Assembly (NCBI RefSeq): GCF_947488135.1
Contig: NZ_CANKYW010000005.1
Location: 186,001-250,000 of the forward strand
Length of the DNA: 64,000 nucleotides
Origin: an uncultured Marivita sp.
GTDB lineage: Bacteria; Pseudomonadota; Alphaproteobacteria; Rhodobacterales; Rhodobacteraceae
Reading direction: 5' to 3'
The notes beneath the pieces are model-generated. The model saw only the letters and a list, made by a program, of their open reading frames with translations. It did no database searches and was not told where the DNA came from. Every line of letters starts with the position of its first letter. Within the stretch, counting starts at the first letter, position 1. Shown here piece after piece: positions 48,112 to 60,470 of this stretch. A program made the position numbers and the translations under genes.

Positions 48112-48192
48112 AAGGTGCTGCTCGATGCGGGCGCCGATCCGAACGCGCATTACATCTGGGGCGGAACCTATCGCTTTGCGGTCCTCACCGGG
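48112..48192 (+). pseudogene. Ankyrin-repeat protein scrap
   Basis: Twenty-seven codons read KVLLDAGADPNAHYIWGGTYRFAVLTG, a clear ankyrin loop-helix (LLDAGADPNA) with a WGGTYRF extension seen in some bacterial ankyrin proteins. Both flanks are unrelated; on its 3' side it joins the AraC relic exactly at the start of a 75-bp repeat. Non-functional. Confidence 0.55.
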
Positions 48193-48266
48193 CGGAAATG
48201 CTCGAAGCCGATGCCCATCACACTTCGGAAACAGCCAGCGAGCGCAGTGCAGCCGTCAAGACCGAC
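48192..48266. repeat. 75-bp repeat shared with 54611-54685
   Basis: The segment from GCGGAAATGCTCGAAGCC to AAGACCGAC matches 54611-54685 with two differences seen by eye. In both places it encodes, on the minus strand, the end of an AraC protein (VGLDGC...GIGFEHFR). Homology stops abruptly on each side. Confidence 0.85.
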
Positions 48267-48476
48267 GGTGAGGCCGAGATCATCGTTGAGATTGGCCTCC
48301 ATGCAATCCTCGACGATGGTGACCTGCACGGCGGGAAGTGGCGACTGCTCGCTCTTGCGCATACCGCAAGACCGCCGGAAAAGCTGAACCGCCAGCATCA
48401 GTGTCAGACCTTCCGACATGGCCCGCCACCCCATGTCCGCCTTGGAGACTTCGCGGCGCTTGCAGCGGATGAGATC
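48193..48476 (-). pseudogene. Chimeric AraC-family regulator remnant
   Basis: The minus-strand frame reads LIRCKRREVSKADMGWRAMSEGLTLMLAVQLFRRSCGMRKSEQSPLPAVQVTIVEDCMEANLNDDLGLT, close to residues in the middle of the AraC at 57305-58195. It then switches to VGLDGCTALAGCFRSVMGIGFEHFR, close to the end of the AraC at 54593-55507. The join lies at about 48266, and the first HTH helix and linker are lost. It is a fusion of two paralogues left by recombination in a former copy of the AraC array. Confidence 0.8.
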
Positions 48477-48618
48477 GAGTGCCGAAAAACGGGTTTGCGC
48501 AGATACGTGATATGATCACGCAGGTTCGAAGAAGAACTGAGCCGCACTTGATGAGACGTTCTAGCAGGTCCTTCGCGCAGTCATCGCCAAGGGCAGAACC
48601 AGTCACATGGAGTTTAGA

Positions 48619-52380: not shown

Positions 52381-52495
52381 ATGCAACGTGCTATAGCCGA
52401 GTGGTTCGGCTGGGGCGCGAAGGCCGAAATGGAGCATGCCCGGGTAGTTCCGGGTCAACTCCTGTCTCGGTCTCAATGTCATACGTCAAACCGTG

Positions 52496-53125
52496 CTACG
52501 GAATCGGAAACGAAAGAACGAAAATCGTTCCTGCAGGTCCGGTTTCCTCCAGTTTGAGTGTCCCGCCGATCCGGGAGGTCAGAGATTGCGCGATCGTCAA
52601 TCCCAGGCCCATAGAGACCGGCAATGCCCCGCTTGAACATGATGCGGTGCTGCTGCCCAAACCAGGGCCCGTATCCGCGACGACGATATTTATCCACCCT
52701 CTTTCCGACACACGCGCCGCTATGCGCACTCCGCCAGGGTTGGAGCCGATTGCGACGATGGCATTGGTGAGTAGGTTGGCGAGGATGCGAAACACGGCCG
52801 AAGCCGTTCCTTCGCAGAAAACGATTTCTGGTGACTGAAAGCGCAGGTCGATTCCGGGATGTGCAATGCCTTCCCCAAGCTCGATCACGTCGGCGACCAC
52901 GCGCGACAGCATTGATGGCTGGCCGTCATCCTCGATCATTCGGTCTTCGGAACAACAGAGCTCAAGTACGCGGGAGCAGCTGCGCTCCAGACGCCGACCG
53001 AGGGTTTTCGGTCGCGACGCGCTGGCCTCGAGCAACTCGTCGGCCACCATCGAGATCGTCGCGACGATGTTCTTGATGTCATGCGCTCTCTGGCGCCATT
53101 CGAGAGAATTAGGTTGGTTCGTCAT
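52496..53125 (-). CDS. Soluble sensor histidine kinase without sensor domain
   Basis: This 209-residue protein has an H-box near its start (QRAHDIKNIVA, H15), an N-box (ILANLLTNAIVAIGSNPGG), G1 (VADTGPGLG) and G2 (SMGLGLTIAQSLTSRIGG) motifs. The whole protein is a dimerisation/phosphotransfer helix plus HATPase domain, with no membrane segment, PAS or GAF domain. No response-regulator gene is next to it. It may be an orphan that takes its signal from a partner protein, or a truncated kinase. Confidence 0.85.
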   Translation of the reverse strand: MTNQPNSLEWRQRAHDIKNIVATISMVADELLEASASRPKTLGRRLERSCSRVLELCCSEDRMIEDDGQPSMLSRVVADVIELGEGIAHPGIDLRFQSPEIVFCEGTASAVFRILANLLTNAIVAIGSNPGGVRIAARVSERGWINIVVADTGPGLGSSTASCSSGALPVSMGLGLTIAQSLTSRIGGTLKLEETGPAGTIFVLSFPIP

Positions 53126-53224
53126 GGAAACTCTCCTTGATGATACCTCAAAACTCTTCCCAATTTTCCGGATCCCGTATTTCTCGAACGAGCGAAATCG
53201 TTGCAGGAAAGCAGATTGCCGGGC

Positions 53225-54097
53225 TCAGGGCGATGCCACGTGCATAAGCCGATAGCTGCCAGGAGTGCGTCCTACGAAACGACGAAACAAGGACGTCATA
53301 TGGCTTTGCGAACTGAAGCCCGTCGAATAGGCAATTTCAGCGAGGCTGAGATCGCTGGCGGTAATCAGTCGCTGCGCTTTCTCGATGCGCTGGAGGATCA
53401 GGTAGCGGCGGATCGACATGCCAGTTCGTTCCCTGAATCGTCTCGAGAAATGATAAGGGCTCAGGCGTGCGTGATGCGCGATTTCAGTGATGGTGATGCT
53501 CTTGTCGAGATTGGCGTCAATGAACTCGAGCGCCGCTTGGATGCATCGCGGGGCGTTCGTTTCAATTTTTTTTTCTTCGGTCACGATTTGCATCAAACGG
53601 ATCGCGATCAGATCCTTGATGAAACTTGTCTCGGTGGGGGTCGAGCAATGCCGCTTGGTGACGATGAAATCGTAAACGATGACACCTGCGCCATTCAGGG
53701 CAAAGTCTATACCGTTCCATATGGGTTCCGTCATACCGTCCAGCGCCAGCCGGGCAGGCGCCACGCGCAGGGCGTCCAAGCGGAAGAGGAAAAGGATGGA
53801 GTGGCCTGCTCTGACAGAGGAATAGGTTCGGACGATCCCGGGCGGCAGAAGGCTAAAGGCGTGTCCGGCCTGACGCTTGGGAACACTGTCGCCGTTGGCT
53901 GTCAGGCTGCTGTCGGTTGCGCCGAGATTTATGTCGAGCAGCCAGTAGCCGTCTGGGATGTCAATTGAGAATGTACCAACGCCAAAGGCGTGCACCAAAA
54001 AGCCGTCGGCCTGAATGGCGATAGGTCTTTCCGAATCTGCGCCAGCGAAATCGTTCATTCCAGTATGAAACGGGATCCGGCGCCGAGCGTATTCCAC
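53225..54097 (-). CDS. AraC-family transcriptional regulator
   Basis: The 290-residue protein has a cupin-like N-terminal sensing domain (VHAFGVGTFSIDIPDGYWLLDINLG) and a C-terminal double HTH (AALEFIDANLDKSITITEIAHHARLSPYHFSRRFRERTGMSIRRYLILQRIEKAQRLI, then SLAEIAYSTGFSSQSHMTSLFRRFVGRTPGSYR). It is separate from the tight array upstream, with the membrane-protein gene between. Target unknown; the nearby kinase and secreted-protein genes are candidates. Confidence 0.9.
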   Translation of the reverse strand: MEYARRRIPFHTGMNDFAGADSERPIAIQADGFLVHAFGVGTFSIDIPDGYWLLDINLGATDSSLTANGDSVPKRQAGHAFSLLPPGIVRTYSSVRAGHSILFLFRLDALRVAPARLALDGMTEPIWNGIDFALNGAGVIVYDFIVTKRHCSTPTETSFIKDLIAIRLMQIVTEEKKIETNAPRCIQAALEFIDANLDKSITITEIAHHARLSPYHFSRRFRERTGMSIRRYLILQRIEKAQRLITASDLSLAEIAYSTGFSSQSHMTSLFRRFVGRTPGSYRLMHVASP

Positions 54098-54141
54098 GGT
54101 GTTCGGTTTTCAGGATCTTGCCTGAGTGTGCCATTACCTCG

Positions 54142-54480
54142 TCAGGGTTTGGGATCCGCGCCGTTGCCATTCTTAGGCACTACGTTGCGGTCGTTGTAGT
54201 TCTTGTTAGCCCAAGCAAAATAACGGTTCACCAGCTCATGTTCGCAGGTTTTGAAGGTCAGCCAGAAAAACAGCCCGGCACCCCCCCATATCAACAGTTC
54301 CCCAACCTGCCACAACGCGCCGTGCAGGATCGCGTCCCAACCGAATTCTCGTACGAAGCGCACGCTGGCCATTGCGTGTTTGAAAAGGTTGAATGTTACG
54401 AAGGCAAAGAAGGCTGTGGCGCTCCCTGCCAGCAGGAACACCAGAATGGCGGGCCAGCGCGTGATGTTGACGAGCACCAT
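54142..54480 (-). CDS. Small membrane protein, 112 residues
   Basis: The ATG at 54480 has AAAGGAGCG before it. Two strong hydrophobic helices are visible (RWPAILVFLLAGSATAFFAFVTFNLF and ALWQVGELLIWGGAGLFFWLTF), then a charged tail ending KNYNDRNVVPKNGNGADPKP. Inserted between two AraC genes on the same strand. No family recognised. Confidence 0.72.
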   Translation of the reverse strand: MVLVNITRWPAILVFLLAGSATAFFAFVTFNLFKHAMASVRFVREFGWDAILHGALWQVGELLIWGGAGLFFWLTFKTCEHELVNRYFAWANKNYNDRNVVPKNGNGADPKP

Positions 54481-54592
54481 GATCGCTCCTTTTGCGTGCA
54501 CGTTAGTGGGCAGACAGAAGGACAGCAATTCGCGCCGTAGCAATCACAGCGGCACATCCTGTTTCAAACCTCGGTGGATAGACCTTTCCGCA

Positions 54593-55507
54593 TTAGTTCA
54601 AAGACCCTTTGCGGAAATGCTCGAAGCCGATGCCCATCACACTTCGGAAACAGCCATCGAGCGCAGCGCAGCCGTCAAGACCGACCCGGGCCGCCAGGGT
54701 TTCGCAAGGCAGCCCAGGATCACGGTCCAGCGCCTCGCGTATCCGGTCTACTCGTCGCTCGTTGCAAAAGCGACTGATGGACATGCCGACATCTTCTTTG
54801 AAGCTGGCCAGCAAAACAGGCGCAGGACAGCCGCAGTAAGCGGCGACCTCTTCGATCGCGAATTCCTCCGCATGGCGCGTTTCGATGTAATCTATGGCGA
54901 GCTTGATCTGTAGCGGCGTGGCCCCCGGTCGGCATTCCAAATCGGACATGCGGGCAAAATCCACCAGTTTGGTTACAAGCGCCCACTCGGTTTCGGTCCT
55001 GCTCAAACCATCCGCCGCGAGCAGCTTCGAGGCGCTGGCCGCGAAGCGCAGCGCGCAGTTCCTGAGCGACACGTTCGTCTCGTTGATGAAACCTGCGGCG
55101 TTCCCCGCCGATGCGTGCCCGTCGCTGGCATGGCCGATCGCCTCGTCGAACATCGCCTCCGGTATCATCACATGTAGTGCCAGGAAACGCCCCTTCGCCG
55201 ACATCCGCGTCTGATTTCGAGACGGCACGTAGCAGAGGCTTCCGGTTTCCACCGCCGCCCTGCGGGGTCCGATCCGCTGATCGAAATCGATTTCCGTCTC
55301 GGCATAACCGCCAAGGCAGAGAGCCAGGAAATGCACGTTCATTCCGGGTGTTTCGAACGTATCGTCCCCTTGGTCCCAGATCGCTGCATCGATGCGACCG
55401 CACCTCAGGTTCTTCTCGGCGAGCCATGACCTGGAGTGGGTCCCAATATGGTTTATGACATCGTCGGCTCCCTGCAAGACGGTGTCGGAGCGGTCCCTTT
55501 TCATCAT
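54593..55507 (-). CDS. AraC-family regulator, array member 1
   Basis: The 304-residue protein has a cupin-type N-terminal half (LALCLGGYAETEIDFDQRIGPRRAAVETGSLCYVPSRNQTRMSAKG) and a C-terminal HTH pair (KLAIDYIETRHAEEFAIEEVAAYCGCPAPVLLASFKEDVGMSISRFCNERRVDRIREAL, then ETLAARVGLDGCAALDGCFRSVMGIGFEHFR). The second HTH is less typical. Its start overlaps the next array member by ATGA. Its 3' end is the source or sister of the 75-bp repeat at 48192. Confidence 0.9.
   Translation of the reverse strand: MMKRDRSDTVLQGADDVINHIGTHSRSWLAEKNLRCGRIDAAIWDQGDDTFETPGMNVHFLALCLGGYAETEIDFDQRIGPRRAAVETGSLCYVPSRNQTRMSAKGRFLALHVMIPEAMFDEAIGHASDGHASAGNAAGFINETNVSLRNCALRFAASASKLLAADGLSRTETEWALVTKLVDFARMSDLECRPGATPLQIKLAIDYIETRHAEEFAIEEVAAYCGCPAPVLLASFKEDVGMSISRFCNERRVDRIREALDRDPGLPCETLAARVGLDGCAALDGCFRSVMGIGFEHFRKGSLN
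54611..54685. repeat. 75-bp repeat shared with 48192-48266
   Basis: Encodes the last 25 residues before the C-terminal tail of the AraC gene (VGLDGCAALDGCFRSVMGIGFEHFR, read on the minus strand). The other copy is part of the chimeric AraC relic. See the entry at 48192. Confidence 0.85.
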
Positions 55508-56430
55508 CCCCGCACCTCCCGGCGGTATTGTCCCGGCGTTACGCCCATGTGCTTACGGAAGACGGTCGTCATATGCGCCTGGCTGGAGAACCCGCAATCG
55601 TATGCGATCTCGGCAAGTGGCAGGTCGCCGAGCGCGAGGAGCTCGCGGGCGCGGGCGAGGCGGCGCTCGATCAGGTACTGGTGCGGGGTCTGGCCGGTGG
55701 TGGCGCGGAAGGCGCGGGCGAAGTGGAACGTGGTGACGCCCGCCGCCCGCGCCACCGTCTCGAGGCCGGGGTTGTTCTCGAGCCCCGCCTCGATCGCCTC
55801 GATTGCACGCGAGAGCTGCGCGGGCGACAGCCGCCCCGGCGCGGGTTCCGGCGCCATGCGGCCGGTGCCGTAGTCGCGCACGATCTCGACGCAGAGCACC
55901 TGCACGAGGCTCTCGACGTAGAGCGCGCCGCCGCCCGAGGGCCGGCGCATCTCCTCGTGCACGAGACCGACCAGCGCCTTCATTCGTGGATGCCACTGCG
56001 CGTTGAAGCCCAGCAGATCGACGCGATCCGGATCGCCGCGCAGCACCGCGCGCTTGGCCTCGTCCATCAGCGAGCGGTCGATGAGCATCTGGAACAGACG
56101 GGCCTCGCCGGTGATGCTGTGCGAGCGCACGGTCCGGCCCGGCGGAACGAAGCTGAAGTTACCCGGACGGTAGGGCGTGGCCGAGGACGTGGCGAGGCCG
56201 TCCATTACGTTCTCGCTGTGGAGCGCCCCGTCGAGGCAGAACTCGAGAAGCCCGAACTCGACGGCGACCTCAAACGGTTCGAGTTCCGCCCCCTGCGTCA
56301 CGACCAGCCCGTCGATCCGCCCGGTGTCCGACCCGATCATCCGATGCACAATTGCGGTATCCAGGTCGAGCAGGAACGGCACCATCTGCTCTGCCGTCAG
56401 CAGCCCGTTGTTCGTTTGCGCCTCGCTCAT
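55504..56430 (-). CDS. AraC-family regulator, array member 2
   Basis: This 308-residue protein has an N-terminal domain with VVTQGAELEPFEVAVEFGLLEFCLDGALHSENVMDGL and a C-terminal HTH pair (IEAIEAGLENNPGLETVARAAGVTTFHFARAFRATTGQTPHQYLIERRLARARELL, then LAEIAYDCGFSSQAHMTTVFRKHMGVTPGQYRREVRG). The frame is open much further upstream into the next gene, but the ATG at 56430 overlaps that gene's stop by four bases and gives a normal AraC length. The last residues equal those of members 3 and 4, so the C-terminal half is recently related. Confidence 0.9.
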   Translation of the reverse strand: MSEAQTNNGLLTAEQMVPFLLDLDTAIVHRMIGSDTGRIDGLVVTQGAELEPFEVAVEFGLLEFCLDGALHSENVMDGLATSSATPYRPGNFSFVPPGRTVRSHSITGEARLFQMLIDRSLMDEAKRAVLRGDPDRVDLLGFNAQWHPRMKALVGLVHEEMRRPSGGGALYVESLVQVLCVEIVRDYGTGRMAPEPAPGRLSPAQLSRAIEAIEAGLENNPGLETVARAAGVTTFHFARAFRATTGQTPHQYLIERRLARARELLALGDLPLAEIAYDCGFSSQAHMTTVFRKHMGVTPGQYRREVRG

Positions 56431-57308
56431 CCCCGCACCTCCCGCCGGTAGCGACCGGGCGTGGTGCCCATGTGCTTTCCGAACACCGTCGTCATGTGCG
56501 CCTGGCTGGAGAACCCGCAGGCATAGGCGATCTCGGCCAGGGGCAGGGACGTCGTCCGCAGAAGCGCCTCCACCCGGGCGACGCGCCGCCCGATCAGGGC
56601 CTGGATCGCGGATTGCCCGGTTGCCGCCTTGAACGCCCTGGCGAACCCGTAGACGTCGAGACCGACGAGCCGCGCGAGGTCGGTGAGGCCGAGATTCTCG
56701 TCGAGATTGGCCTCCATGAAATCCTCGACGATGGTGACCTGCATGGCGGAAAGCGGCGACTGCTCGCTCTTCCTCATACCGCTGAAGCGGCGGAAGAGCT
56801 CGCCAGCAAGCACCAGTGTCAGACCTTCCGAAATGGCCCGCCAACCCATGTCCGCCTTTGAGACTTCGCGGCACTGTCGGCGGATGAGATCGGCCAGTCG
56901 CGGTTCGTGGAAGGCGAGGTCGGGTTCGAGCGCGCCCATGCGCCACGCGACATCGCTGTCCTGCGAGACGGCGCGCAGAAGCGCGTCATCCACGCTGACC
57001 AGGATGTTGGTGGTCTCGCCGCGGAAATCGTAGAACTGCGGGACGCCCGCCGGTGCGAAGGTCAGCAGGCCTGGCCGCGTCTCCTTCTCCCAGATGGTTC
57101 CGTTCGCCTCCGCCCTCAGTTTTCCGGTCGAGCGGTCCGCGAGAAAAAGAAGGTTCGTCGGCGGGCGAAAAACCTCGCTGCTATGCGAGCCGAACGTGAA
57201 CGCGGACATCTCTAACGTCTCGCTGGGCGACGGCAGAACTTCACCCCCTATGGCGACCGCGAGGTCTATCGCGCCCGTAAAGTCGAAGTGAGGCACGCGC
57301 GCGCTCAT
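56427..57308 (-). CDS. AraC-family regulator, array member 3
   Basis: The 293-residue protein has the N-terminal domain FTGAIDLAVAIGGEVLPSPSETLEMSAFTFGSHSSEV and APAGVPQFYDFRGETTNILVSVDDALLRAVSQ. The C-terminal HTH pair includes LDENLGLTDLARLVGLDVYGFARAFKAATGQSAIQALIGRRVARVEALL. It is a close paralogue of member 4 by eye. Start and stop overlap its neighbours by ATGA. Confidence 0.92.
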   Translation of the reverse strand: MSARVPHFDFTGAIDLAVAIGGEVLPSPSETLEMSAFTFGSHSSEVFRPPTNLLFLADRSTGKLRAEANGTIWEKETRPGLLTFAPAGVPQFYDFRGETTNILVSVDDALLRAVSQDSDVAWRMGALEPDLAFHEPRLADLIRRQCREVSKADMGWRAISEGLTLVLAGELFRRFSGMRKSEQSPLSAMQVTIVEDFMEANLDENLGLTDLARLVGLDVYGFARAFKAATGQSAIQALIGRRVARVEALLRTTSLPLAEIAYACGFSSQAHMTTVFGKHMGTTPGRYRREVRG

Positions 57309-58195
57309 CCCCGCACCTCCCGCCGGTAGCGCGCGGGCGTCGTGCCCATGTGCTTTCCGAACACCGTCGTCATGTGCGCCTGGCTGGAGAAGCCGCAGGC
57401 GTAGGCGATCTCGGCCAGTGGCAGGGCCGTCGTCCGCAGAAGCGTCTCAACCCGGGCGACGCGCCGCCCGATCAGGGCCTGGATCGCGGATTGCCCGGTC
57501 GCGGCCTTGAACGCCCTGGCGAACCCGTAGACGTCGAGACCGACGAGCCGCGCGAGGTCGGTGAGGCCGAGATTCTCGTCCAGATTGGCCTCCATGAAAT
57601 CCTCGACGATGGTGACCTGCATGACGGAAAGCGGCGACTGCTCGCTCTTGCGCGCACCGCTGAAGCGGCGGAAGAGTTGCACCGCCAGCATCAGTGTCAG
57701 ACCTTCCGACATGGCCCGCCAGCCCATGTCCGCCTTTGAGACTTCGCGGCGCTGCCGGCGGATGAGATCGGCCACGCGAGGTTCGTGGAAGGCAAGGTCG
57801 GGTTCGAGCGCGCCCATGCGCCACGCGACATCGCTGTCCTGCGAGACGGCGCGCAAAAGCGCGTCATCCACACCGACCAAGATATTGCTGGTCTCGCCGC
57901 GGAAATCATAGAACTGCGGGACGCCCGCCGGTGCGAATGTCAGCATGCCGGGCCGCGACTCCCTCTCCCAGATGGTTCCGTTCGCCTCCGCCCTCAGTTT
58001 TCCGGTCGCGCGGTCCGCGAGAATGAGAAGGTTCGTCGGTGGCTGGCGAACTTCGCTGCTATGCGTGCCGAATGTGAAAGCCGACATCTCGAACGTCTCG
58101 CTTGGCGATGGCAGAACTTCGCCACCTATGTCGACCATGACGACCGCGAGGTCCTTCGTGTCGGTCCATTCGAAGTGAGGGGTGCGCACGGTCAT
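57305..58195 (-). CDS. AraC-family regulator, array member 4 (first gene)
   Basis: This 296-residue protein is close to member 3 throughout, with scattered substitutions and a slightly longer N-terminus (MTVRTPHFEWTDTKDLAVVMVDIGGEV). The double HTH contains SLDVYG-type first recognition helix and ending GTTPARYRREVRG. It is the promoter-proximal member of the coupled array. The chimeric relic at 48193 most resembles this member (MSEGLTLMLAVQLFRR). Confidence 0.92.
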   Translation of the reverse strand: MTVRTPHFEWTDTKDLAVVMVDIGGEVLPSPSETFEMSAFTFGTHSSEVRQPPTNLLILADRATGKLRAEANGTIWERESRPGMLTFAPAGVPQFYDFRGETSNILVGVDDALLRAVSQDSDVAWRMGALEPDLAFHEPRVADLIRRQRREVSKADMGWRAMSEGLTLMLAVQLFRRFSGARKSEQSPLSVMQVTIVEDFMEANLDENLGLTDLARLVGLDVYGFARAFKAATGQSAIQALIGRRVARVETLLRTTALPLAEIAYACGFSSQAHMTTVFGKHMGTTPARYRREVRG

Positions 58196-58452
58196 CTCGG
58201 CATACTCACCGACTTTGCCGGAACGAAGGGATTCGCGGTCGTCACTCCTTCACCTCCATCAATCGAACCGGTACGCCTGTACCCGGATGCGCCAGGTTCT
58301 CGAACTATCACGGTGGTCGAATGAACGCCGAAGACGGTCACTCGGACAAAAGTATTATCAAGCATACACTATTTGTCTTTCACGATCTCGGTTTTTCAAA
58401 TTCTTGCGGGTTTCTCGTCGGGAAACTTCTGAGCCCCACTGGCTGCCATGCA

Positions 58453-58745
58453 TGCATTGATTACGTTCGGCAGAATTTACGTATCTCGGAGCGGTTCGCT
58501 TGCCGTGTGCTTGTCCAGCATCGCTCCACCAAAAGAAAGGTGCCGCACCGACGCCCTGGCGAGGAGGCACTTTTCGCCGACATCATCGCGCTCGCCGCGC
58601 GCAACGGCCGCTCGGGCTACCGGCGCATTTCGGTCCTGCTCCGCCAGGCGGTTGGCCGGTGAACGGGACAAGGGCCGAACGGATCCGGCGGCGGTAGGGG
58701 CTGAAGGTCCCGCAGAAGCACCCGAAGAAGGGAAGTCTACCGGAA
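58453..58745 (+). pseudogene. IS3 (IS407-like) OrfB, N-terminal fragment
   Basis: The frame reads CIDYVRQNLRISERFACRVLVQHRSTKRKVPHRRPGEEALFADIIALAARNGRSGYRRISVLLRQ. After a shift it continues WPVNGTRAERIRRR and LKVPQKHPKKG, the N-terminal third of an IS407-type OrfB. The matching C-terminal part lies in the same orientation at 62104-62425. The middle is gone. The fragment ends just before the truncated AraC gene. Confidence 0.85.
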
Positions 58746-58755
58746 AGACGTTCCT

Positions 58756-59313
58756 TCACGGCACATTTCTCCGCATTTTACCTGGGGTGGTTCCAAGAAT
58801 CTTGGTGAAAACTTCCGTCATGTGGCTTTGTGAGGCGAAGCCGCAATCCAGGGCGATCTTGACGATTGGGTCGTCGGACTGTTTCAGGCGTCGTTTTCCA
58901 TGTGCGAGACGCCTTTCAACGACATACTGATGAAGCCTTCGTCCCGTCGCAGCGAGGAACATGCGTGCAAAATGATATGTGCTGACGCCAGCAATGTCCG
59001 CGAGGCTCTTCAGCGAGTGAGTTGCGCAAAGGTCTCTGTCAATATGATCGAGCACGCGCTTAATACGCGGAGAGACGGCAGTCGTGCGCGGCGGTTCGCG
59101 CTTTTCATCTCTGATACGATCCGTGAGTCGCATGAGGAGCAGCGTGACGATTGCTTCAATCTGAACATCCGACGGCCTATTCTGGTCAGGCAGCCAGCAG
59201 CCCGCGAGCTGATTGGCGATGGCCATCAATGTGTCGTCTCGTTCGTGCAACTGGGTCTTAAGCGCCATTGTTTCATCCGCATTTTTCGAGTCGTCTGGTT
59301 CGACTTGCGACAC
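58756..59313 (-). pseudogene. AraC-family regulator, N-terminally truncated
   Basis: The C-terminal half is intact: RIKRVLDHIDRDLCATHSLKSLADIAGVSTYHFARMFLAATGRRLHQYVVERRLAHGKRRL and VKIALDCGFASQSHMTEVFTKILGTTPGKMRR. Only about 75 residues precede it, and the first 15 codons (MSQVEPDDSKNADETM) lie in DNA that overlaps the end of the IS110 remnant. The sensing domain is therefore lost. A stand-alone DNA-binding half could still be made, so decay is not certain. Confidence 0.75.
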
Positions 59314-60470
59314 AACGATAAGAACCGGCTCGATCCTGATAGGTCATGCCATGGCGAATGGCATTGTAGAACAGGACCGCAATCTTGCGCGCCGTCGCCG
59401 TGACCGCCTTTTGCTTGCCTATGCGCGATGACAACCGTCGATAGAACGCGCCCAGAGCCGTGTCGCTTCGGCCAATCGTGACTGCCGCCAGACGCAGGAG
59501 TGCAGCGGCGCGGCTGGAGGACCGGCGTGTCCGCGAGGATAGCAACTTGCCGCCGGAGATCTTGTTGCCCGGAGCGAGACAAAGCCAAGACGTAAAGTGC
59601 TTGGCGCTCTGCCAGGCGCGCAGGTCCGTGCCGCATTCGGCCACCAGCTTCAGAGCCAGCGATGGGCCAAGACCGTGGATTTGCGTCAAGTCTGTGCCCA
59701 ACACCCCGTAAAGTGCGGCACGCACATCGAAGGACGGCGCGTTGTGCTGCTTGCCTTTGATCCGAGCTTTGGCCAGCGGAGCCAGATCACCTTCAACCCG
59801 AACAGTAAGCGCGGCTACTGCCGCTTCCAGCCGGTGGTCACACGCCGCAATTTGCGCTTTGTAGAAGTCGTATAGCTCCAGCGACTGTGTCAGAGCAAAG
59901 ACATGTTCTTCGCGGTCGTTGCCGATCAGCGCGGCTTTTATCGTGTCGATTAATGATTTGCAGCGCACGTCGCGGTAGGCCGCCAACACATCTGGGTCTC
60001 GCTCGCCGGCGACGATGGAGCGGATAATCCGCAAACTTGTCGCGCCAGTGATGTCGGAGACGACATGATGCAGTTGCAGGTTCATCTCCATCAGGGCCTT
60101 CTGCATGTGCTGGATATGGGCGGCAGCATACTCGGTAAGCCGTTCCCGTTGGCGCATGTAAGCCCGCAAGGTAGCGATCTCCGCTTCAGGGCGGAAACTG
60201 CCGCGGAGCAGCCCGTAGGAATGCAACTGGCGCAGCCATCCCGCGTCGTTCACATCGGTTTTGCGGCCCGGCACATTCTTGGCATAGCGGGCATTCACGA
60301 GGATGACCTCGAAGCCGTGCCCCTCCAGGATCTCGAAGGCCGGTATCCAGTAAACGCCGGTCGACTCCATCGCCACGCTGGTGACGCCGCATGACCGAAA
60401 CCAGGCGGACAGATCGTGCAGGTCCTGGGTGACCTGTTCATCATGCGGAGCGTGCTGGCTTACATCCGGT
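59273..60470 (-). pseudogene. IS110-family transposase, N-terminally truncated
   Basis: Recognisable sequence starts at VSQHAPHDEQVTQDLHDLSAWFRSCGVTSVAMESTGVYW (60470 downward). It continues NARYAKNVPGRKTDVNDAGWLRQLHSYGLL and the C-terminal Tnp_20 domain (IHGLGPSLALKLVAECGTDLRAWQSAKHFTSWLCLAPGNKISGGKLLSSRTRRSSSRAAALLRLAA). The first Asp of the DEDD domain and the start region are absent. It belongs to a different branch from the IS110 copy next to it. Confidence 0.85.

Follow-up and report, generated by a model that had tools for sequence, protein, structure and literature searches.

The neighbouring AraC-family regulators GadX and GadW of Escherichia coli have been reported to interact, and their genes form separate transcription units with no chain of overlaps. 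Other AraC-type genes lie directly side by side: rhaSR act as a two-step cascade in rhamnose catabolism, and fciAB, two contiguous genes of the chromatic acclimation island of marine Synechococcus, stand beside their proposed target, a phycobilin lyase gene, and are proposed to have arisen by duplication and divergence (from passages of PMC3877281). Here we describe an array of four such genes, A to D, in a 64,000 nt stretch of DNA (hereafter the window; positions 186,001 to 250,000 of contig NZ_CANKYW010000005.1), which is part of the 4.47 Mb, 41-contig genome of an uncultured Marivita sp.

We tentatively propose that the array is a set of genes chained in translation. Different signals would reach a single operator through A, B and C, heterodimers would form between A and B, and D would be a partner that does not bind DNA; this is a serious possibility, though short of probable. 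It is also quite possible that tandem duplication of the ordinary kind, within an unstable island, produced the array. Its members would then act as homodimers on unrelated promoters of their own, the overlaps would be compact packing, and the alike DNA-binding domains (DBDs) would reflect recent recombination.

Organisation and distribution of the array

An earlier note, made from the letters of the window, had described four AraC-family regulators encoded head to tail with 4-bp overlaps, and this arrangement stands. All four open reading frames (ORFs) are intact and co-directional, with an ATGA overlap at 3/3 junctions (57305-57308 between A and B, 56427-56430 between B and C, and 55504-55507 between C and D). 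The genes are as follows, with the member numbers of the earlier note in brackets:

57305..58195, minus strand: A, AraC-type regulator, 296 aa, array gene 1 (member 4)
56427..57308, minus strand: B, close paralogue of A, 293 aa (member 3)
55504..56430, minus strand: C, AraC-type regulator, 308 aa (member 2)
54593..55507, minus strand: D, divergent AraC-fold protein, 304 aa (member 1)

A, B and C score above the Pfam HTH_18 cut-off, as do two further genes nearby, E and F (see below); D, at 31.2 bits, falls below the cut-off of 33.6. The relationships that had been drawn between the members are borne out by their identities. A and B, seen as close paralogues, are 89% identical (85% in the N-terminal half, 97% in the C-terminal half). 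C, said to share their C-terminal end and to have another sensing half, is 59-60% identical to them in the former and 27-29% in the latter, and D is divergent from A, B and C in both halves (16-18% N-terminal, 23-27% C-terminal).

The array is rare within the genomes searched. Matches were confined to the source genome for B at 1e-20 in the genus (17 genomes, own included) and for the sensor half of B at 1e-5 in the class (385 genomes). The same was true of B at 1e-30, C at 1e-40 and D at 1e-20 in the family (295 genomes, one per genus, own included) and of alignment A2 at 1e-38 in the phylum (398 genomes), in searches that scored at most 5-8 candidates per genome and can miss distant relatives. 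Viral contigs gave no match. Plasmids gave no near DNA match to the array, none to B at 1e-25 and none to D at 1e-8; at weaker cut-offs B matched 857 records (1e-8) and C 359 (1e-15), all at <60% identity. AraC-type genes themselves are plentiful, with nine HTH_18 matches at 1e-10 in the source genome and 369 across 41 genomes. Around 60 excised AraC loci, a second AraC ORF was seen in 1/60, divergently oriented, and on the same strand in 0/60. These loci are the first 61 listed of the 369 rows minus C (one is from the source genome) and reach about 2.5 kb to each side (at most 5.3 kb), some being clipped at contig ends; the sample is skewed to high-scoring AraC, and a degenerate neighbour resembling D could escape it.

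The earlier note had suggested a search for similar coupled AraC arrays, and a second coupled pair was found. In locus L009 of a Rhodospirillaceae metagenome-assembled genome (JAPOST010000145.1), the best match outside the source genome, two AraC genes, La and Lb, share an ATGA overlap. The first 131 codons of La (L009 7503-8687) match a plasmid DUF932 gene at 90% identity in an in-frame fusion, and the gene's own 5' end seems to have been lost and replaced in frame. A tree of helix-turn-helix (HTH) domains (51 domains, 45 of them different) groups A with B and La with Lb, both at 100/99, and unites the two pairs at 84/79; by path C lies closest to A and B, in a placement without resolution. 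This tree suggests that the two arrays are probably related, and that they were duplicated separately or homogenised within each genome. In the order of the L009 genome, 7/11 genomes match alignment A2 at 1e-25. In two other tandem AraC pairs, in L035 (G692) and, at a contig end, in L023 (G697), some 245 bp separate the genes, which do not overlap, and such uncoupled duplicates are what ordinary duplication would leave. Two rhizobial plasmids (L105 and L106) carry the order AraC - major facilitator superfamily (MFS) transporter - AraC on one strand.

Likely translational coupling

The final 16 nt of A, B and C are identical (GGAGGTGCGGGGATGA) and comprise GGAGG, 7 nt and the overlapping start, so that each gene holds the likely ribosome-binding site of the next within its coding tail:

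57305..57320, minus strand: A-to-B junction, GGAGG, 7 nt and ATGA within the last codons of A
56427..56442, minus strand: B-to-C junction, the same GGAGG-7 nt-ATGA tail
55504..55519, minus strand: C-to-D junction, the same GGAGG-7 nt-ATGA tail

When the pattern is loosened to GGAGGTG-N5-ATGA, the window contains it three times, in each case at an array junction. In L009 both La and Lb end in GAGG, 7 nt and ATGA, and what comes after Lb is no more than a 5-codon frame. A survey of 102 distinct AraC ORFs found a Shine-Dalgarno (SD)-like motif with ATGA at the stop in 5/5 members of the coupled arrays (A, B and C; La and Lb), in 1/94 other ORFs and in none of D, E and F; this pattern was picked after inspection of the five members, and the 94 ORFs, some of them near-identical orthologues, are not independent. 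ATGA at the stop, with or without the SD-like motif, was seen in 5/94. The sole non-array ORF among the 94 that ends in SD-ATGA is in L080.

The junctions combine a 4-nt overlap with an SD motif in the upstream gene, the two features taken to indicate translational coupling in the sections of PMC6728339 and PMC10666635 drawn on here. In these sections, removal of the SD reduced reinitiation in 4/5 E. coli pairs (PMC6728339), and short overlaps are tied to tight coupling and heteromeric complexes (PMC10666635). Co-translation of A to D, which the earlier note had stated outright, is likely, on the evidence of the GGAGG 7 nt ahead of each overlapping ATG. According to the same excerpts, few gene spacings are commoner than a 4-nt overlap (PMC10666635), and an SD usually comes with it (PMC6728339), as compact packing of duplicated genes would have it. 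However, Lb retains its SD-ATGA tail with no gene after it, and Lb alone goes beyond mere overlap, which speaks against duplication and packing as the whole explanation.

One more candidate for coupling, which is speculative, lies upstream of A:

58192..58257, minus strand: possible leader ORF, 17 codons, GTG at 58245, stop ending at 58192

Its frame is preceded by GGAGG at 58253-58257 (7 nt spacing), and its end shares ATGA with the start of A.

Divergence of sensor and DNA-binding domains

Residue identity between A and B is 81% in the sensor, 91% in the linker and 96% in the DBD (sensor versus rest, p 0.0012), and synonymous divergence (dS) is 0.31, 0.21 and 0.12, respectively. The two genes have been under purifying selection, with a ratio of non-synonymous to synonymous differences (pN/pS) of 0.32 over 293 codons (p 1.4e-7); the ratio is 0.40 in the sensor (0.28 without the first 35 residues) and 0.23 in the linker plus DBD. 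Judged by these substitutions, the array is alive at least in A and B.

The same partition, with linker and DBD alike and sensor diverged, is stronger between La and Lb. Their identities, computed without the DUF932 part of La, are 48% in the sensor, 77% in the linker and 86% in the DBD (p 1e-7), and their synonymous codons are also partitioned (p 1.6e-5), with dS saturated in the sensor, 0.57 in the linker and 0.38 in the DBD. The uncoupled tandem pair 692a-692b has 77%, 87% and 75% in the same domains, with no significant difference. In 5/24 uncoupled AraC pairs identity was lower in the sensor than in the other half, in no case significantly; in 2/24 it was significantly higher, and one pair gave p 0.017 in the synonymous test, in the same direction as the arrays; these pairs are not independent (23 come from one AraC family and 1 from another), and their domain cuts, counted from the C-terminus, are slightly unlike those used for the array pairs.

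Coupled AraC copies with differing sensors and alike DBDs, as envisaged in the earlier note, are present in the window, and the L009 pair shares a partition which the 24 controls lack. Sensor-only divergence in both coupled pairs and in 0/24 uncoupled pairs argues against an unstable-island duplication and, from the codon and residue comparisons, is more than plain duplication would give. We read the pattern in A-B and La-Lb as recombination plus selection that would keep partner and operator while the sensors change.

C stands further off, with 27-30% identity to A and B in the sensor, 32-33% in the linker and 58-59% in the DBD. Gene conversion at its 3' end was considered: comparison of C with A and B gave p 0.004 and 0.024 (uncorrected), yet the between-array comparison of B with Lb gives p 0.027 there. 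With this, and with no signal for C when the cut is placed between the sensor and the linker plus DBD, conversion of C is not claimed.

DNA-contact positions and the nature of D

The base contacts of MarA, which we take to be W42, Q45, R46, Q91, Q92, T95 and R96, were placed on the array proteins by alignment. At these seven positions A and B read YAR/QATT, C reads FAR/QATT, F YAR/QSTE, E YSR/QSTS and D PLA/CADG. The identity of A and B at these positions argues against separate targets. D has 0/7 of the MarA residues and is unlike A, B and C at 6/7 positions; R46, which is kept in 57/61 surveyed AraC proteins, is alanine in D.

AlphaFold models of B and D both have strands, linker helices and an HTH domain, and so the AraC-type architecture of an N-terminal cupin-like sensor with linker helices, although confidence in the sensor is moderate. 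The mean predicted local distance difference test score (pLDDT) is 68 for B and 75 for D, the predicted template modelling score (pTM) is 0.46 and 0.51, and the DBD of D is modelled with a pLDDT of 80-95 (blocks of ten). Foldseek matches both proteins best to full-length AraC-type structures, with 8-14% identity and a whole-chain template modelling (TM) score of about 0.3, so the domain arrangement of the models is not fixed. From model and alignment together, D seems to have kept the AraC fold but lost the customary mode of DNA recognition.

Proposed mechanism

In the chained set that we propose, tandem duplication would have been followed by partial homogenisation through recombination between the copies. 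A single mRNA would be translated gene by gene, which would produce the members in a set proportion. A, B and C would act on the same half-site, each supplying its own ligand sensor, A and B would in addition form mixed dimers, and D, without DNA binding, would modulate the other members, most likely as a negative partner. The common operator, the dimers and the role of D are what we infer from the anatomy of the array. Heterodimers had been raised in the earlier note for the members in general, with a combinatorial switch as the alternative; the heterodimers are plausible for A and B, given their linkers, and are not favoured for C, whose linker is too unlike. An AraC-type protein can enter mixed dimers even with a LysR-type partner, as two-hybrid data on OnfD with NodD2 indicate in the part of PMC7499043 drawn on here.

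The ancestral signal of the array might perhaps have been a nutrient or iron carrier, because a TonB-dependent siderophore receptor is annotated just downstream of the AraC gene in 3/8 plasmid loci of distant relatives (L110, L113 and L114). For this survey 12 plasmid loci were taken from 32 listed rows, and 8 had gene tables. The source genome has a single TonB-dependent receptor, on a different contig.

Several observations weigh against the chained set. Just two coupled arrays were found, and that of L009 is damaged, as the DUF932 fusion in La indicates. With 22 instances in the window (13 on the plus strand and 9 on the minus strand), GGAGG spaced 5-9 nt from a following ATG or GTG is not rare. 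An SD precedes the downstream start in around or above 50% of overlapping pairs in 20/24 prokaryote groups, as given in the same portion of PMC6728339, so the tail mostly restates the gene overlap. The synonymous partition of A and B is marginal (sensor versus rest, p 0.051), and their sensor difference lies partly within the first 35 residues. C shows no synonymous partition against A and B (sensor versus linker plus DBD, p 0.51 and 0.83), which would suit ordinary duplication, and its linker is 32-33% identical to theirs. Upstream of A, the operator search gave no direct repeats. QATT, shared by A, B and C and counted in favour of the chained set, was found in 0/61 surveyed AraC proteins and in both L009 proteins, but the survey is dominated by another type (24/61 read RER/PSSK), and the HTH1 contacts of La and Lb (WSD and WAD) are unlike those of A to C. 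To these is added the state of the surrounding island.

Genomic setting

The array is surrounded by a DDE_3 transposase gene, two IS110-type insertion sequence (IS) elements and an IS3 remnant, and a decayed second copy lies about 6 kb away, all of which an unstable-island duplication would lead one to expect. The neighbouring features are:

58756..59313, minus strand: F, AraC DNA-binding half without sensor, 185 aa, ending at the IS110 element, probably truncated
54142..54480, minus strand: small protein between D and E, membrane-like by eye
53225..54097, minus strand: E, stand-alone AraC-type gene, 290 aa, downstream of the array without overlap
52496-53125, same strand as E and downstream of it: kinase-like protein with a HATPase_c domain and no sensor
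48192..48477, minus strand: array-copy remnant, 286 bp, in array order and orientation, the rest deleted

The earlier note had placed two more AraC genes and a chimera near the array. E and F are indeed HTH_18-positive, but F lacks a sensor half and stops where the IS110 match begins (about 59326). The supposed chimera is no gene but the deletion remnant of another array copy, in which 75 bp like the 3' end of D (97% identical) abut 212 bp like the middle of A and B (87-89%). Together with F and with the IS3-like remnant that begins at about 58418, upstream of A, it points to an older, longer or duplicated array that has partly decayed. With IS elements around the locus and a decayed copy near it, the present chain may be young and transient.

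Megablast of 40000-64000 matched 218 plasmid records, whose names begin most often with Rhizobium (60), Sinorhizobium (51) or Pseudosulfitobacter (40), the best rows being IS elements of roseobacter and Paracoccus-type plasmids. The island has short matches (39-314 bp) in 5/16 other genomes of the genus: the small-protein region and the IS3 remnant each account for two, and the fifth, 39 bp long, falls within C. The small protein has no Pfam or NCBIfam match; stretches of its DNA are 70-76% similar in two same-genus genomes (G304 and G297). Promoter-like sites (2 observed versus 1.5 expected in 52400-59400; one upstream of A, 58383-58354, minus strand) and terminator-like sites (10 versus 6.2; one after D, 54538-54522, minus strand) were set aside as array signals, their counts being near chance.

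Further readings of the array

A bolder form of the chained set is a sensor array that extends itself. Since each gene carries the ribosome-binding site and start of the next in its last codons, a tandem copy would be born translationally chained; recombination would keep linker and DBD alike while sensors diverge, mixed dimers would meet at one operator, and D would be a DNA-blind brake. We regard this as unlikely. If the chained set as such is right, longer operons of chained regulators would let bacteria give one promoter more inputs, and the coding tail would account for copies staying coupled. The array would then show, in a natural and testable form, how one-component regulators can acquire signals while their targets stay as they are, and might serve as a multi-input part for synthetic biology.

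A two-step cascade, in which one member induces the operon and another activates the end genes, is the mode of the closest described two-gene cluster, rhaSR (in the passages of PMC3877281 used here). It is improbable for the array, where the catabolic genes are about 7 kb or more distant and no catabolic operon directly adjoins, no repeated operator is seen upstream of A, and A and B are identical at their contact positions. That the array is decaying and non-functional, as the truncation of F, the remnant at 48192-48477 and the lost contact residues of D could suggest, is very improbable in view of four intact ORFs, the purifying selection on A and B and the high confidence of D's predicted DNA-binding fold.

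Comparison with known systems

The chained set that we propose shares with the two-gene AraC operons of the rhaSR and fciAB type its adjacent, co-directional genes. The target gene that would stand directly beside such an operon is not recognisable here, the neighbours being E, the small protein, the kinase-like gene, F and IS elements. The L009 pair is like the array in its ATGA overlap, its SD-like GAGG tails and its divergence partition, and unlike it in having two genes, the first fused to DUF932 codons. The earlier note knew of no described system of this form. For adjacent AraC genes as such this is too broad, as rhaSR and fciAB are published (PMC3877281, in the passages cited). For a chain of four it may hold: in the literature on AraC arrays, tandem AraC genes and heterodimers, the titles and abstract openings among the matches listed contained no chain of at least three AraC genes. 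Where rhaSR has two genes, and fciAB two beside a proposed target, the array has four in one chain, and it may extend the known two-gene AraC clusters to a form without a described counterpart.

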